Assembly: GCA_003222675.1 (NCBI GenBank)
Contig: QHWT01000050.1
Span: 50,539 to 86,285 of the forward strand
Length of the DNA stretch: 35,747 nucleotides
Source of the DNA: Acidobacteriota bacterium
Lineage (GTDB): Bacteria; Acidobacteriota; Vicinamibacteria; Vicinamibacterales; 2-12-FULL-66-21
Direction: 5' to 3'
Each line of letters opens with the position of its first letter. Position 1 is the stretch's first letter. Made by a program: the position numbers and the translations under genes. The notes beneath the pieces were generated by a model. The model was not told the origin of the DNA, did not search any database, and worked only from the letters and a program-made list of their open reading frames with translations. Shown here one piece after another: positions 5,403-33,595 of this stretch.

Positions 5403-5421
5403 CCACGAGAGGGGAGAGAGC

Positions 5422-5502
5422 GCCCCGCGCCCCGCACCCCGCGCCCCGCGCCCCGCACCCGCACCGCGCGCCGTGCCCCGCACCCCGCACCCCGCACCCC
5501 GG
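5422..5502. repeat. CCCCGCA/CCCCGCG heptamer tandem array
   Basis: About ten copies of a 7-bp unit, CCCCGCA or CCCCGCG, with one irregular stretch in the middle. It ends 2 bp before the stop codon of the S9 peptidase gene read on the other strand. It occupies the convergent gap between the MFS and the S9 genes. Confidence 0.9.
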
Positions 5503-15152: not shown

Positions 15153-15200
15153 CATGAGTCATGAGCCACCCTGAGCCCTGAGTCATGAGCCCTGAGCCAT
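15153..15200. repeat. GAGTCAT/GAGCCCT heptamer array
   Basis: Six or seven copies of a 7-bp unit read as CATGAGT, CATGAGC or CCTGAGC. The array covers the convergent gap and runs into the last codons of pncB, so the unit has replaced the 3' end of that gene (MAQGS tail). Just before it, AGGCT-CAG-AGCCT (15136-15148) forms a small hairpin. Confidence 0.85.
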
Positions 15201-23248: not shown

Positions 23249-24180
23249 AGAGGGTTCTACAGGTTCCCGAGTTCCAGAGTTCCACGGTTCTCGTTCCCGT
23301 GTTCCAATGGTTCTCGGTTCTCCAGGTTCTCGGTTCTCTGGGTTCTAGGTTCTCGGTTCTCGGTTCTAGGTTCTCGCCCGCAACGCGTCGGGTGTGGGAC
23401 AGAGCACCAAGTATCGCAGAAACTGCTCCCCAAAACGACTTGCAACGTGAAACGTACCGCGTACTTTTTGCTGTCACTCTCAAAAGTCGGCCGAAAACGG
23501 GCCCGGCACGATCGGTGCTCGGCAGCCGGTATGGCTACTGCGCATTGCTTCGAGGAACTGGTTGCCTGGCAGCTGTCTGACGCGCTCAAAGAGGAAGTGT
23601 TTCGATTGACACAGCGCGAGCCGGTCGCGCACGACACGCATTTCTGCAACGACATCCAGAGGTCCGCCCGATCTGCACCTGCCAACATTGCGGAGGGTTT
23701 TGGATGGTACGACCCAAAGCCTAACGCGCGCCACGTGTCGATCGCTAAAGCATCGCTTGAAGAAACAAAAAATCATACGCTCGAGGGATTCAAGCGGAAC
23801 CACTTTGATCCCGTCGAGCGCGATGGTCTCCTCGAACTGAATAAACGCGCTCTCATCGCGACGACACGCTACCTGCGCTACCTGAAGTCCTGCGCGCGCG
23901 CTCCTGAAGGCAAACCTTACAAGCCTCGGTCTACCATGAAGCCGTCGGTAAGCCCGCAACCGCAAGAAACCAAAGCGGACGGAACCAAGAACCAGCCATA
24001 AAAGAAGGTCGAACTCGCAATCTCGAACGTGAGAACCTCAAACCTGAGAACCGCGAACTCGAGAACCGCGAACCTGAGAACCTGAGAACCTAGAACCTAG
24101 AACCTGAGAACCTAGAACCTGAGAACCTGAGGAACAAGAACTTGGGGAACCCCTGGAACTGAGGAACCCGGGAACCCTCT
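23249..24180. mobile_element. Palindrome-bounded cassette carrying a four-helix-bundle gene
   Basis: The left arm (23249 to about 23376) is an array of GGTTCTC/GGTTCTA heptamers and variants (GGTTCCC, GTTCCAG). The right arm (about 24009-24180) is the same array inverted: GAGAACC, TAGAACC, CTAGAACC. The outer ends are a perfect 9-bp inverted repeat, AGAGGGTTC (23249-23257) and GAACCCTCT (24172-24180). The whole unit is 932 bp and fills the gap between parE and DinB, 3 bp from the parE start and 7 bp from the DinB stop. I saw no target-site duplication. Inverted arms round a TIGR02436 gene recall the 23S rRNA intervening sequences. Confidence 0.75.
23531..24001 (+). CDS. Four-helix-bundle protein (23S rRNA intervening-sequence protein family, TIGR02436)
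   Basis: 156 residues from ATG 23531. Family pattern: FEELVAWQLSDALKEEVFRLT (helix 1, about 6-26), FCNDIQRSARSAPANIAEGFG (about 42-62, with the diagnostic S-x-P-x-NIAEG), then SIAKASLEETKNHTLEG and a fourth helix ending TTRYLRYLKSC. The fold is a pentameric four-helix bundle in IVS proteins and in Avd of diversity-generating retroelements. Members are basic and thought to bind nucleic acid. The C-terminus has about 30 additional polar residues. The gene sits between inverted heptamer arrays and is divergent from parE. Confidence 0.88.
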   Translation: MATAHCFEELVAWQLSDALKEEVFRLTQREPVAHDTHFCNDIQRSARSAPANIAEGFGWYDPKPNARHVSIAKASLEETKNHTLEGFKRNHFDPVERDGLLELNKRALIATTRYLRYLKSCARAPEGKPYKPRSTMKPSVSPQPQETKADGTKNQP

Positions 24181-29497: not shown

Positions 29498-31876
<2,379 letters not shown>

Positions 31877-32018
31877 CGCTTAGCAGAATAGCACTGGGCT
31901 CAACGGAGACGGACGGAGGAAACGAACGGAGGAACGGACGGAGGAAACGGGCGGAGGAAACGGACGGAGGAAACGGATCCTAGAAACGAAGCAACGAACG
32001 CAACGAAGACGAACGAAG

Positions 32019-32092
32019 GGCGATCGCCGAGCGCCCGGCCTCCGGCCGGGCGTCACTTCCACACCCGCGCGAAGCGCGGCTCGGCGATCGCC
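32019..32092. repeat. Three-way-junction palindrome (REP-like)
   Basis: A 14-bp perfect outer stem GGCGATCGCCGAGC (32019-32032) with GCTCGGCGATCGCC (32079-32092) encloses two hairpins: CGCCCGGCC-TCC-GGCCGGGCG (32032-32052) and CCGCGC-GAA-GCGCGG (32065-32079). The second hairpin and the adjoining TCGGCG also occur in the 13.2 kb palindrome. It is inside the GxxExxY cassette just after the gene's stop codon. Confidence 0.8.
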
Positions 32093-32100
32093 TCATGCGG

Positions 32101-32526
32101 TCAAACCGGATCGTCGGTGACCCCTTCAATCCGCATCTTCGGATTCACCACGCGCTTCACGCCATCAACGAGCCTCACGACGTTGAAGTTGATCAACAGC
32201 CCGACGGGCAGATTGGCCAGCTTCAACTGGGTGAGCACCTGCCGCCGATGAATCTCCATCAGCGTCTGCACGCTCTTCAGCTCCACGACGACGCAGCCTT
32301 CGATGACGATGTCGATGTAGTAGAGCGTTTTCAGCTGCACGCCTTTGTAGATGATTGGCACCCTGCGCTGAAGTTCGAACTGCAGCTTCTCTGCGGTCAG
32401 TTCGTACGCCATGCATTCTTCGTACACGTTCTCGAATACTCCTGGACCAACGACGTCGTGCACGCGAATGCCGCACCCGATGATCGCGCGAGTGATCAGG
32501 TTCGTGCCATGTGGATCTGTCAACAT
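32101..32526 (-). CDS. GxxExxY family protein (PDDEXK_3-like)
   Basis: 141 residues from ATG 32526 (MLTDPHGTNLITRAIIG); an ATG at 32586 would add 20 residues with no family support. The name motif GPGVFENVYE (about 27-36) is exact. Then YIDIVIEGCVVVELKSVQTL (about 78-97) gives a D...E-x-K as in PD-(D/E)XK nucleases, and HRRQVLTQLKLANLPVGLLINFN the C-terminal helix-strand. TIGR04256/PF13366 members are small, scattered and of unknown function; nuclease activity is predicted from the fold only. It sits between inverted repeats in a cassette and is oriented like parC. Confidence 0.88.
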   Translation of the reverse strand: MLTDPHGTNLITRAIIGCGIRVHDVVGPGVFENVYEECMAYELTAEKLQFELQRRVPIIYKGVQLKTLYYIDIVIEGCVVVELKSVQTLMEIHRRQVLTQLKLANLPVGLLINFNVVRLVDGVKRVVNPKMRIEGVTDDPV

Positions 32527-32680
32527 GCACGGCGGACATAGCAAGGAGCGGACCGCGGCGGAATTGGCCCGAAATGCTGCCAGCAAGCCTGATATGTTGC
32601 ACTTTCTTCGTACCCTCCGTTAGCTTCGTTGCTTCGTTTTTGAGATCCGTTCCCTTCGTCACCCTCCGTGGCAGACGACT

Positions 32681-33595
32681 ATGAGAACCCTCCGATACCT
32701 CCACTACGACGTCTTCACCGATCGCGCCTTCGAAGGCAACCAGCTCGCCGTGTTTCCAGAGCCGGCCGGGCTGACGACAGAGGAGATGCAGCGGATTGCG
32801 CGCGAGATGAATTTTTCCGAGAGCACGTTCATCTTTCCGCGCGAGACACCGGACACCGATATCCGGATGCGGATCTTCACGCCGGGTGAAGAGCTGCCGA
32901 TGGCTGGACACCCGACAATCGGGAGCGCGTTCGCGCTCGCGACGGAAGGGATCATCGCAAAAGGACGGGAGCGCTTCGTGTTCGGCCTTGGTGTGGGGCC
33001 GACGCCCGTGACGCTCGAATGGAAACGGGACGAGCTCGATTTCGCATGGATGACGCAGAAGCTGCCGGCCTTCGAGGGACGCGTCACGGATCGGCCCGCG
33101 CTGGCCGCATCGCTCGGCCTCGACGCGGCGGATTTCGTCGAGGGCGCGCCCGTGGAAGTCGTCTCGTGCGGTGTGCCGTTTCTGTTCGCGCCGCTGGCGT
33201 CACGCGCAGCGGTGGATCGCGTAGCGATGAATCGACCCGCCTATGCCGCCTGCTGCAAGGCCGCCGGCCTCGCGGAGCGGCCGCTGTTCCTGTTCACGCT
33301 CGACGGCGGCGCCACCGAACGGGAATCCATCTACAGCCGCATGCTCGCTCCCGGCTTCGGCGTCGCGGAAGACCCCGCGACCGGCAGCGCAAGCGGGCCT
33401 CTCGGCTGCTATCTCGCAATACATCGACTGCTCCCGGCCGACCGGCTGACCGGGTTCGTCAGCCTGCAGGGGGCAGCCATGCAGCGGCCCAGCCGGATTC
33501 ATATTTCCATCGGCGCCGAGCGCGATCGCATCACCAGCGTGCGCATCGGCGGCCGGAGCGTTCTCGTCGGCAAGGGCACGCTCGAAGTGCCGTAA
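32681..33595 (+). CDS. PhzF family isomerase/epimerase-like protein
   Basis: 304 residues. N-terminal half: DVFTDRAFEGNQLAVF (about 10-25), the catalytic Glu47 in MNFSESTFIF and MAGHPTIGSA (about 74-83). C-terminal half: GFGVAEDPATGSASGPLGCYL (about 226-246), the second conserved block. The two halves share the hot-dog-like fold of diaminopimelate epimerase. PhzF isomerises dihydro-hydroxyanthranilate in phenazine synthesis, but no other phz genes are near, so this is one of the many housekeeping relatives with unknown substrate. The start codon is 9 bp from the right arm of the GxxExxY cassette and lacks a Shine-Dalgarno. Confidence 0.9.
   Translation: MRTLRYLHYDVFTDRAFEGNQLAVFPEPAGLTTEEMQRIAREMNFSESTFIFPRETPDTDIRMRIFTPGEELPMAGHPTIGSAFALATEGIIAKGRERFVFGLGVGPTPVTLEWKRDELDFAWMTQKLPAFEGRVTDRPALAASLGLDAADFVEGAPVEVVSCGVPFLFAPLASRAAVDRVAMNRPAYAACCKAAGLAERPLFLFTLDGGATERESIYSRMLAPGFGVAEDPATGSASGPLGCYLAIHRLLPADRLTGFVSLQGAAMQRPSRIHISIGAERDRITSVRIGGRSVLVGKGTLEVP

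Follow-up and report, generated by a model that had tools for sequence, protein, structure and literature searches.

The window, by which we mean the whole 35,747-nt stretch of DNA that was analysed, carries a cassette in the intergenic gap between parC and phzF, outside any 23S rRNA gene. Within it a small gene is enclosed by inverted repeats, and the features read as follows from left to right:

29498–31876, minus strand: parC, left neighbour of the cassette
31888–31893: ATAGCA copy beside the parC start, read from the sequence
31905–31977: outer left tandem array of ACGGAGG-type units (TRF: period 13, 5.7 copies, 88% matches)
31963–32018, plus strand: left arm of the inverted repeat, from the gapped flank alignment, with core AACGGATCCTAGAAACGAAGCAACG at 31972–31996
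32019–32092: stem of 14 nt without mismatches, a GC-rich hairpin nested in it, adjoining the left arm on its inner side
32101–32526, minus strand: GxxExxY gene, intact, assigned to the PD-(D/E)XK family; with the chosen start codon, the ATG at 32526, it encodes 141 aa
32527–32605: leader, from the GxxExxY gene start to the right arm; homologous to the sequence upstream of parC in relative G001
32538–32543: second ATAGCA copy, upstream of the GxxExxY start, read from the sequence
32606–32660, minus strand: right arm of the inverted repeat, from the gapped flank alignment
32681–33595, plus strand: phzF, right neighbour of the cassette

The preliminary description had claimed two perfectly paired blocks in the same order on both sides of the gene. 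Indeed, a 15-nt block at 31984–31998 pairs perfectly with 32625–32639 and an 8-nt block at 31972–31979 with 32644–32651, in that order. Both lie within an inverted pair of 46 nt, 80% of which is paired. When the 700-nt flanks were aligned locally with each other, the inverted repeat scored 53, compared with a mean of 24.1 and a maximum of 30 for 40 dinucleotide shuffles. The ACGGAGG arrays that had been placed outside both arms were recovered on the left (TRF 31905–31977), while outside the right arm we found no array and single units only: ACCCTCCG occurs three times on the right, once within the right arm (32612–32619) and as single units at 32661–32668 and 32687–32694 (the last already in phzF). 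In the predicted fold the 14-nt stem at 32019–32092 pairs next to the arm stem, and when the cassette is folded as its minus-strand transcript, the arms pair with each other (z –2.66; none of 20 shuffles was as good). Other repeats were seen in the same window. A TIGR02436 gene (match 23567–23809, plus strand) lies at 23253–24150 with GGTTCTC-type arrays on its left and their inverse on its right (alignment score 105, against at most 29 in 40 shuffles), and tandem arrays of 7–8 nt at 2564–2628, 5420–5501 and 15153–15200 (TRF units GGGTGATT, GCGCCCC and CATGAGC) are located away from the window's TIGR02436 and GxxExxY genes.

The enclosed gene was correctly recognised as a GxxExxY gene. The open frame 32101–32586 matched TIGR04256 with 132.5 bits (cut-off 35) and PF13366 (PDDEXK_3), its sole Pfam match, with 128.2 bits (cut-off 22); judged by these profile scores, the window protein is a clear member of both families. 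Residues G29, E32, Y35, D72, E82 and K84 were invariant in all 51 aligned GxxExxY proteins, the window's included. The nuclease motif of the window protein (E32, D72, E82-x-K84) is intact, and from established knowledge of the PD-(D/E)XK superfamily we take E32, D72, E82 and K84 to be the catalytic residues. An AlphaFold2 model of the protein (pLDDT 88.8, pTM 0.81) had as its top PDB fold match SSO0001 (4ic1; VIA Z 8.9, rmsd 3.2, 98 residues aligned), which we take to be a Cas4. Further fold matches were restriction-endonuclease-like proteins (Z 7–8), the Hjc resolvase (Z 6.2) and phage-type exonucleases (Z 5–6), with BamHI, Hjc and LHK-Exo among the nuclease matches at Z 5–7; all matches beyond the first rank had Z < 8, and according to the tool such scores can reflect the arrangement alone. 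A Foldseek search with the model gave no match at E ≤ 0.001 (best 0.015), and a PDB sequence-profile search with the window protein gave none at E ≤ 1. As modelled, the window protein looks like a PD-(D/E)XK fold.

The parC–phzF site and arms in the window's own genome

A phzF match at E ≤ 1e-40 was obtained in 28 of 60 genomes, the window's own counted, and 30 loci were fetched. parC adjoins phzF in the window locus and in six relatives, and the GxxExxY query matched the window locus only. None of the six relatives has the gene there, and the outcome that the preliminary description had named as refuting, a gap syntenic with the cassette in all relatives, was not obtained. The gaps in G003 (L016) and G009 (L019) are short and have no visible shell, and those in G006 and G008 hold other sequence. 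In G010 (L017) the gap contains both ACGGAGG arms without the gene (internal repeat score 70), that is, an empty shell. The gap of G001, which belongs to the same genus, aligned to window positions 32526–32669, corresponding to the leader and the right arm, with a score of 99, where 200 shuffles reached at most 54. Its alignment to the left part of the window's gap (31870–32100) scored 27, a value that was reached by 34 of 200 shuffles. The site in G001 thus has the right arm alone, without the gene and without the left arm. Gene and left arm are accordingly an insertion or a deletion with respect to this close relative, whose gap matches only the leader and the right arm. Two ATAGCA copies (31888–31893 and 32538–32543) bracket the segment that is absent from G001 and are its putative break points. 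ATAGCA belongs to a motif that several relatives have upstream of parC, and for that reason we do not call it a target-site duplication.

Profile searches of the window's own genome yielded five TIGR04256 matches, three of them whole, and eight TIGR02436 matches. At 11 of these 13 loci the flank inverted repeat exceeded all 40 shuffles; the exceptions, L004 and L005, are broken or partial GxxExxY genes. The other two intact GxxExxY copies share 41% and 34% identity with the window protein, and no near-identical gene-bearing copy was found among the intact copies of this genome. At such identities, GxxExxY does not form a recent multi-copy family in this genome. At C135:88956–101608 a partial GxxExxY gene and two TIGR02436 genes lie together inside 13 kb.

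The arms themselves are more numerous than the gene. The core-arm pattern AACGGATCNTCARAACGAAGCAACG (up to 3 mismatches) had 14 + 14 matches in the own genome and none when read backwards; each of 11 other genomes of the same family had 0–2 matches. The 28 matches correspond to 18 places, ten of which have both arms, and a single place, the window's own, coincides with a GxxExxY match. Together with the gene-less shell in the parC–phzF gap of G010, these places show that the shell does occur without the gene, which supports the earlier proposal on this point. A scan for inverted pairs (score ≥46, within 2 kb) that covered 795,176 of the 7,161,935 bases of the genome returned 31 pairs, of which one was a run of N and several were not arrays. 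Gene-less palindromes of the window's arm type lie at C126:86548, C126:117929, C126:152077 and C6:117600. There are also gene-less palindromes of heptamer types (e.g., ATCCCTG and GGTTCTC) that enclose a TIGR02436 gene elsewhere in the same genome. At C6:117560–118080 the shells are nested, window-type arms surrounding a CGCAGAGG-type shell that in turn surrounds a long hairpin.

Repeat arms at GxxExxY and TIGR02436 loci

A scan of named genomes with one peptide pattern revealed at least 567 relatives, and the best 80 of 567, a choice favouring the query's subfamily, were analysed. These 80 loci are spread over many phyla and include Methanosarcinales archaea; 74 had flanks long enough for the inverted-repeat score and 79 for unit arrays. 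Among the best 80, a flank inverted repeat of at least 35 was present at 49 of the 74 testable loci (500-nt flanks), the other 25 scoring below this value, compared with 1 of 137 controls placed 1500 nt off at the same loci. CRCVRAG units spaced 7–13 nt apart occurred on both sides at 59 of the 79 loci, on one side at 14 and on neither at 6, while the controls had them on both sides in 0 of 136 and on one side in 13. The CRCVRAG motif was read off the tested loci themselves; the inverted-repeat score is independent of it. Spacings of 9 nt (130) and 8 nt (105) were the commonest. A stricter three-unit pattern detected 89 arms, on both sides in 35 of the best 80 loci, with a consensus of approximately TTMAC-CRCRGAG-R-CRCRGAG-RR-CRCRGAG and the AC end pointing outward. 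For the order-level relatives we used 25 of 28 new loci (fragments L063, L070 and L071 omitted), and one locus without a match and one with a short flank reduced these to 23; 15 of them scored at least 35, 8 scored below, and 16 beat their own shuffles. Flank inverted repeats were better than shuffles and offset controls at most loci, and the contrary result envisaged in the preliminary description, matches no better than in shuffled intergenic DNA, did not appear.

The unit varies between loci. Window-like AACGGAG units were found at L058, L050 and L222, whose proteins are 57%, 49% and 53% identical to the window protein. The match between unit and protein is not one to one, since L187 has CACGGAG units despite 54% identity. 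Unit variant and protein distance were correlated (Mantel r 0.325, reached in 0 of 2000 permutations; r 0.329 after partialling out GC content; 79/111 loci) in a test that ignores phylogeny, and joint inheritance as well as recognition can produce this result. Out of seven unit positions, 0.55 mismatched on average inside one locus versus 1.49 between loci. The protein columns that might explain the unit variant amounted to weak, phylogeny-confounded candidates.

TIGR02436 genes were likewise found in shells. Out of 37 loci (8 from the own genome and 29 from relatives), 32 scored at least 35, compared with 1 of 68 controls. A sample from the cyanobacterial phylum gave 26 of 29 (controls 2 of 56); it comprised 30 loci, one of which had a short flank, the gene position was assumed in 9 of the 29 for lack of a tblastn match, and the arms of L339 and L356 are identical. 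The best repeat period was 7 or 14 nt in 49 of 64 TIGR02436 arms (17 of 26 in the cyanobacterial sample) versus 8 or 9 nt in 74 of 98 GxxExxY arms. The TIGR02436 unit differs between most loci, CGGGAGT being common to L080 and L085. CRCVRAG arrays were present on both sides at 0 of the 37 TIGR02436 loci and on the left only at one.

These comparisons bear on the earlier suggestion that the two families share one kind of shell with interchangeable cargo. The common plan of tandem array, gene and inverted array held, but the units differ (8–9 vs 7/14 nt). Interchangeable cargo is unsupported, because GxxExxY and TIGR02436 have a common architecture and different repeats: the array period differs by family, two-sided CRCVRAG arrays are absent from all 37 TIGR02436 loci, and within GxxExxY the unit follows the protein to some degree, with the Mantel r of 0.325. 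The shell type going with the family, and the unit variant partly with the protein, it seems that a gene and its shell are passed on jointly.

Dispersed arms and genomes that carry the gene

Away from the gene, arms occur by the tens in many genomes. The genome of Baaleninema simplex PCC 7105 had 65 + 42 = 107 matches to the pattern ACCACRGAGNCACRGAG at up to 1 mismatch, with 0 in the backwards control, and nine other locus-bearing genomes had 0 to 30 each. At the gene locus of Baaleninema there are four arms to the left and, in inverted orientation, three to the right. Among 19 regions of this genome away from the gene, 18 had their arms on a single strand (two arms in one case), and the single paired region, L294, holds an opposite arm pair 260 nt apart. 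For these calls up to 1 mismatch was allowed. With up to 3 mismatches the backwards control had 24 matches in 20 regions, a level that is not specific in Baaleninema because tandem arms partly match their own reverse. Seven of 20 solo arms fell inside an ORF of at least 100 aa in any frame, which is uninformative on position.

For comparison between genomes we used an arm model, R1, derived from the sequences of 32 arms beside genes, with up to 118 or 60 candidates scored per genome; all of the following associations ignore phylogeny. R1 matches were present in 28 of 60 order-level relatives, namely in 18 of 21 with the gene versus 10 of 39 without (p 9e-6). When up to two arms per gene were discounted, 13 of 21 versus 7 of 39 remained (p 0.001). 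Of 117 genomes sampled from the cyanobacterial phylum, arms were found in 21 of 26 with the gene versus 4 of 91 without (p 9e-15); 28 of these genomes had a gene match, and G146 and G182, which fell under the cut-off, were counted as gene-free. The cyanobacterial subset with known genome sizes (n = 59) showed arms in 9 of 10 genomes with GxxExxY versus 2 of 49 without, and the same arms set against TIGR02436 presence gave 9 of 24 versus 2 of 35 (p 0.005). Restricted to cyanobacterial-phylum genomes of at least 4 Mb (n = 23), the figures were 9 of 10 versus 2 of 13 for GxxExxY (p 0.0006) and 9 of 14 versus 2 of 9 for TIGR02436 (p 0.09).

Several genomes depart from this association. Many arms and no detected gene were seen at order level in G024 (at least 118), G003 (87), G008 (56) and G046 (49) and, in the cyanobacterial sample, in G166 (54) and G135 (36). 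The gene was present with no scored arm in G001, G052 and G059 (order level) and in G107, G129, G139, G158 and G160 (cyanobacterial). These gene-less, arm-rich and gene-bearing, arm-less genomes weigh against a strict dependence between gene and arm. A chance origin of the arms was considered and was ruled out by the shuffles, the offset controls and the genomes without the gene. In G080 a dense cluster of arms on both strands lies within 6 kb around a GxxExxY gene (C1:2805969–2811794). One composite query matched 8 of 72,556 plasmid records, too few for an empty-site comparison, and 0 of 50,697 phage records.

A proposed gene-plus-repeat system and its alternatives

We favour, with a probability of roughly 0.55, the reading that the cassette belongs, as a gene-plus-repeat unit, to a widespread system, selfish or domesticated, which is a REP/RAYT-like partnership with a PD-(D/E)XK nuclease. 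It starts from direct observations, namely the architecture, its conservation across domains, the dispersal of arms and their co-occurrence with the gene, the co-variation of unit and protein, the intact nuclease motif and the presence or absence at parC–phzF. Recognition, cutting and mobilisation would be the part of the GxxExxY protein. The nuclease would recognise an arm built of about three 7-nt units in tandem (C-R-C-R-R-A-G, one starting every 8–9 nt); the window arm has the A-A-C-G-R-A-G variant of this unit. Such arms lie in inverted orientation on both sides of the gene and are also scattered alone or as gene-less palindromes. The protein would most likely cut DNA at the arms, perhaps at an extruded cruciform junction or on a single-stranded arm in replication. 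By analogy with RAYTs and REPINs, cutting could lead to short arm-bearing segments being copied or moved while the gene stays in one or few copies. Dispersed arms are mostly single in Baaleninema and are paired at 10 of 18 places here, and one mechanism must cover both. The many gene loci that have no clear arms also count against this reading, as do the arm-rich genomes in which no gene was detected.

An RNA element akin to an intervening sequence (IVS), in which RNase III would excise a long hairpin made by the arms within host transcripts and the protein would be incidental or hairpin-binding, appears unlikely. It has a precedent in the 23S IVS of Coxiella with its terminal inverted repeats, S23p ORF and tandem heptamers (described in PMC4990558), and it accords with the folding of the minus-strand transcript with paired arms (z –2.66, 0 of 20 shuffles as good). 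However, G-U-compatible arm mismatches showed no clear excess in the sense RNA (GxxExxY 100 vs 79, TIGR02436 34 vs 45), and the single arms in 18 of 19 Baaleninema regions cannot form a hairpin. For want of a clear wobble bias, and because single arms cannot pair, we regard the hairpin as the less likely form of action; RNA-level pairing as a constraint was rejected on the same wobble asymmetry. The site is moreover intergenic and not in rRNA, and an Rfam search of 31800–32760 gave no match at E ≤ 1. Inverted terminal arms, gene-less palindromes and presence or absence at parC–phzF would equally be expected of an ordinary insertion sequence of about 700 bp, with GxxExxY as its transposase and the gene-less shells as MITEs. 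This is quite unlikely, as unlike an IS the cassette has no near-identical gene-bearing copies at several sites of its own genome (34–41% identity), many solo arms occur in Baaleninema, a target-site duplication is hinted at by ATAGCA only, and the composite query had few plasmid and no phage matches.

The shell alone might be mobile, moved by something else and carrying GxxExxY or TIGR02436 as chance cargo. The arm places without GxxExxY do outnumber the one with it, and gene-free genomes with many arms exist; against this, the shell type tracks the protein family and partly the protein variant, and gene and arm co-occur strongly, which makes such passive carriage improbable. We consider it just as improbable that the arms are binding sites by which the nuclease regulates itself or marks self-DNA, with no mobility involved. 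Family-specific arrays beside the gene and the co-variation of unit and protein would fit this function, which nevertheless leaves unexplained both the presence or absence at parC–phzF and the expansion of one arm type in the own genome compared with 0–2 matches in each of 11 relatives.

Turning back to the gene-plus-repeat system, we compared it with repeats described elsewhere. The Coxiella 23S IVS resembles the cassette in having terminal inverted repeats around a small ORF, and its heptamers, which precede the ORF (PMC4990558), resemble the TIGR02436 shells seen here; the GxxExxY cassette differs in lying outside rRNA, in its protein and in a unit spacing that is not heptameric. Dispersed heptamers have also been described in PMC4692102 and PMC4679880 (GGGAATC in Xanthomonas, GGGGATT in Nostoc, TAACTGA in Beggiatoaceae) as mostly intergenic short tandem arrays with some inverted pairs; the GxxExxY units differ by starting every 8–9 nt. 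By term search, the available text of PMC4679880 yielded no mention of S23, four-helix or GxxExxY, and that of PMC4692102 none of S23 or four-helix. Among the open-access literature matches listed, as far as their excerpts go, neither family was tied to flanking arrays, the Coxiella IVS paper excepted, no cognate repeat was described for TIGR04256 or PF13366, and five arm strings retrieved no paper.

The S23p ORF is presumably of the TIGR02436 type, and cyanobacterial STRRs are dispersed short tandem repeats. At a little under even odds, we envisage an undescribed, cross-domain class of partnerships, in which GxxExxY nucleases go with the CRCRRAG arm and, in parallel, four-helix-bundle TIGR02436 proteins go with mostly locus-specific heptamers, the arms changing together. 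ORF-bearing 23S IVSs and cyanobacterial heptamer arrays would then be special cases of the TIGR02436 branch. If this is true, the presence of locus-specific heptamers on both sides would mean that the arms are rewritten by arm-to-arm copying. Two small families of unknown role would be given a definite partner sequence and a function that can be tested, and the scattered short tandem arrays in cyanobacteria, in relatives of the window organism and elsewhere would have a candidate explanation. The partly matched variants of unit and protein might let a recognition code be read.

A REP repeat carries a GTAG/CGTC tag. In REPIN/RAYT systems, as summarised in PMC3116915, few distinct gene copies each have a short repeat beside them, further repeats are scattered as singles or inverted doublets, and the types of repeat and protein match. 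The GxxExxY system is similar in its few distinct gene copies with repeats around them, in the many matching gene-less repeats dispersed in high copy through the genome, and in the position of the repeat beside the gene, here inverted on two sides (59/79 vs 0/136 controls). REPINs are mainly inverted doublets; the GxxExxY arms gave a mixed picture on this point, being paired at 10 of the 18 own-genome places (up to 3 mismatches) and at 1 of the 19 gene-free Baaleninema regions. It differs in its PD-(D/E)XK protein, where RAYT is a Y1/HUH transposase, in an arm of tandem 7-nt units without a tag, where REP is a tagged imperfect palindrome, and in being found here in bacteria and archaea. It thus falls outside REPIN/RAYT, given its tandem-array repeat and a protein other than a Y1 transposase. 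Should the nuclease spread the repeats, bacteria and archaea would possess a second system that lives as REP/RAYT does and is unrelated to it. A separate dispersed inverted repeat of AACGGGGACACTCACA type, at C9:10315, C9:30054, C126:106894, C126:120918 and C6:49025 of the window's own genome, resembles a classical REP-type element.
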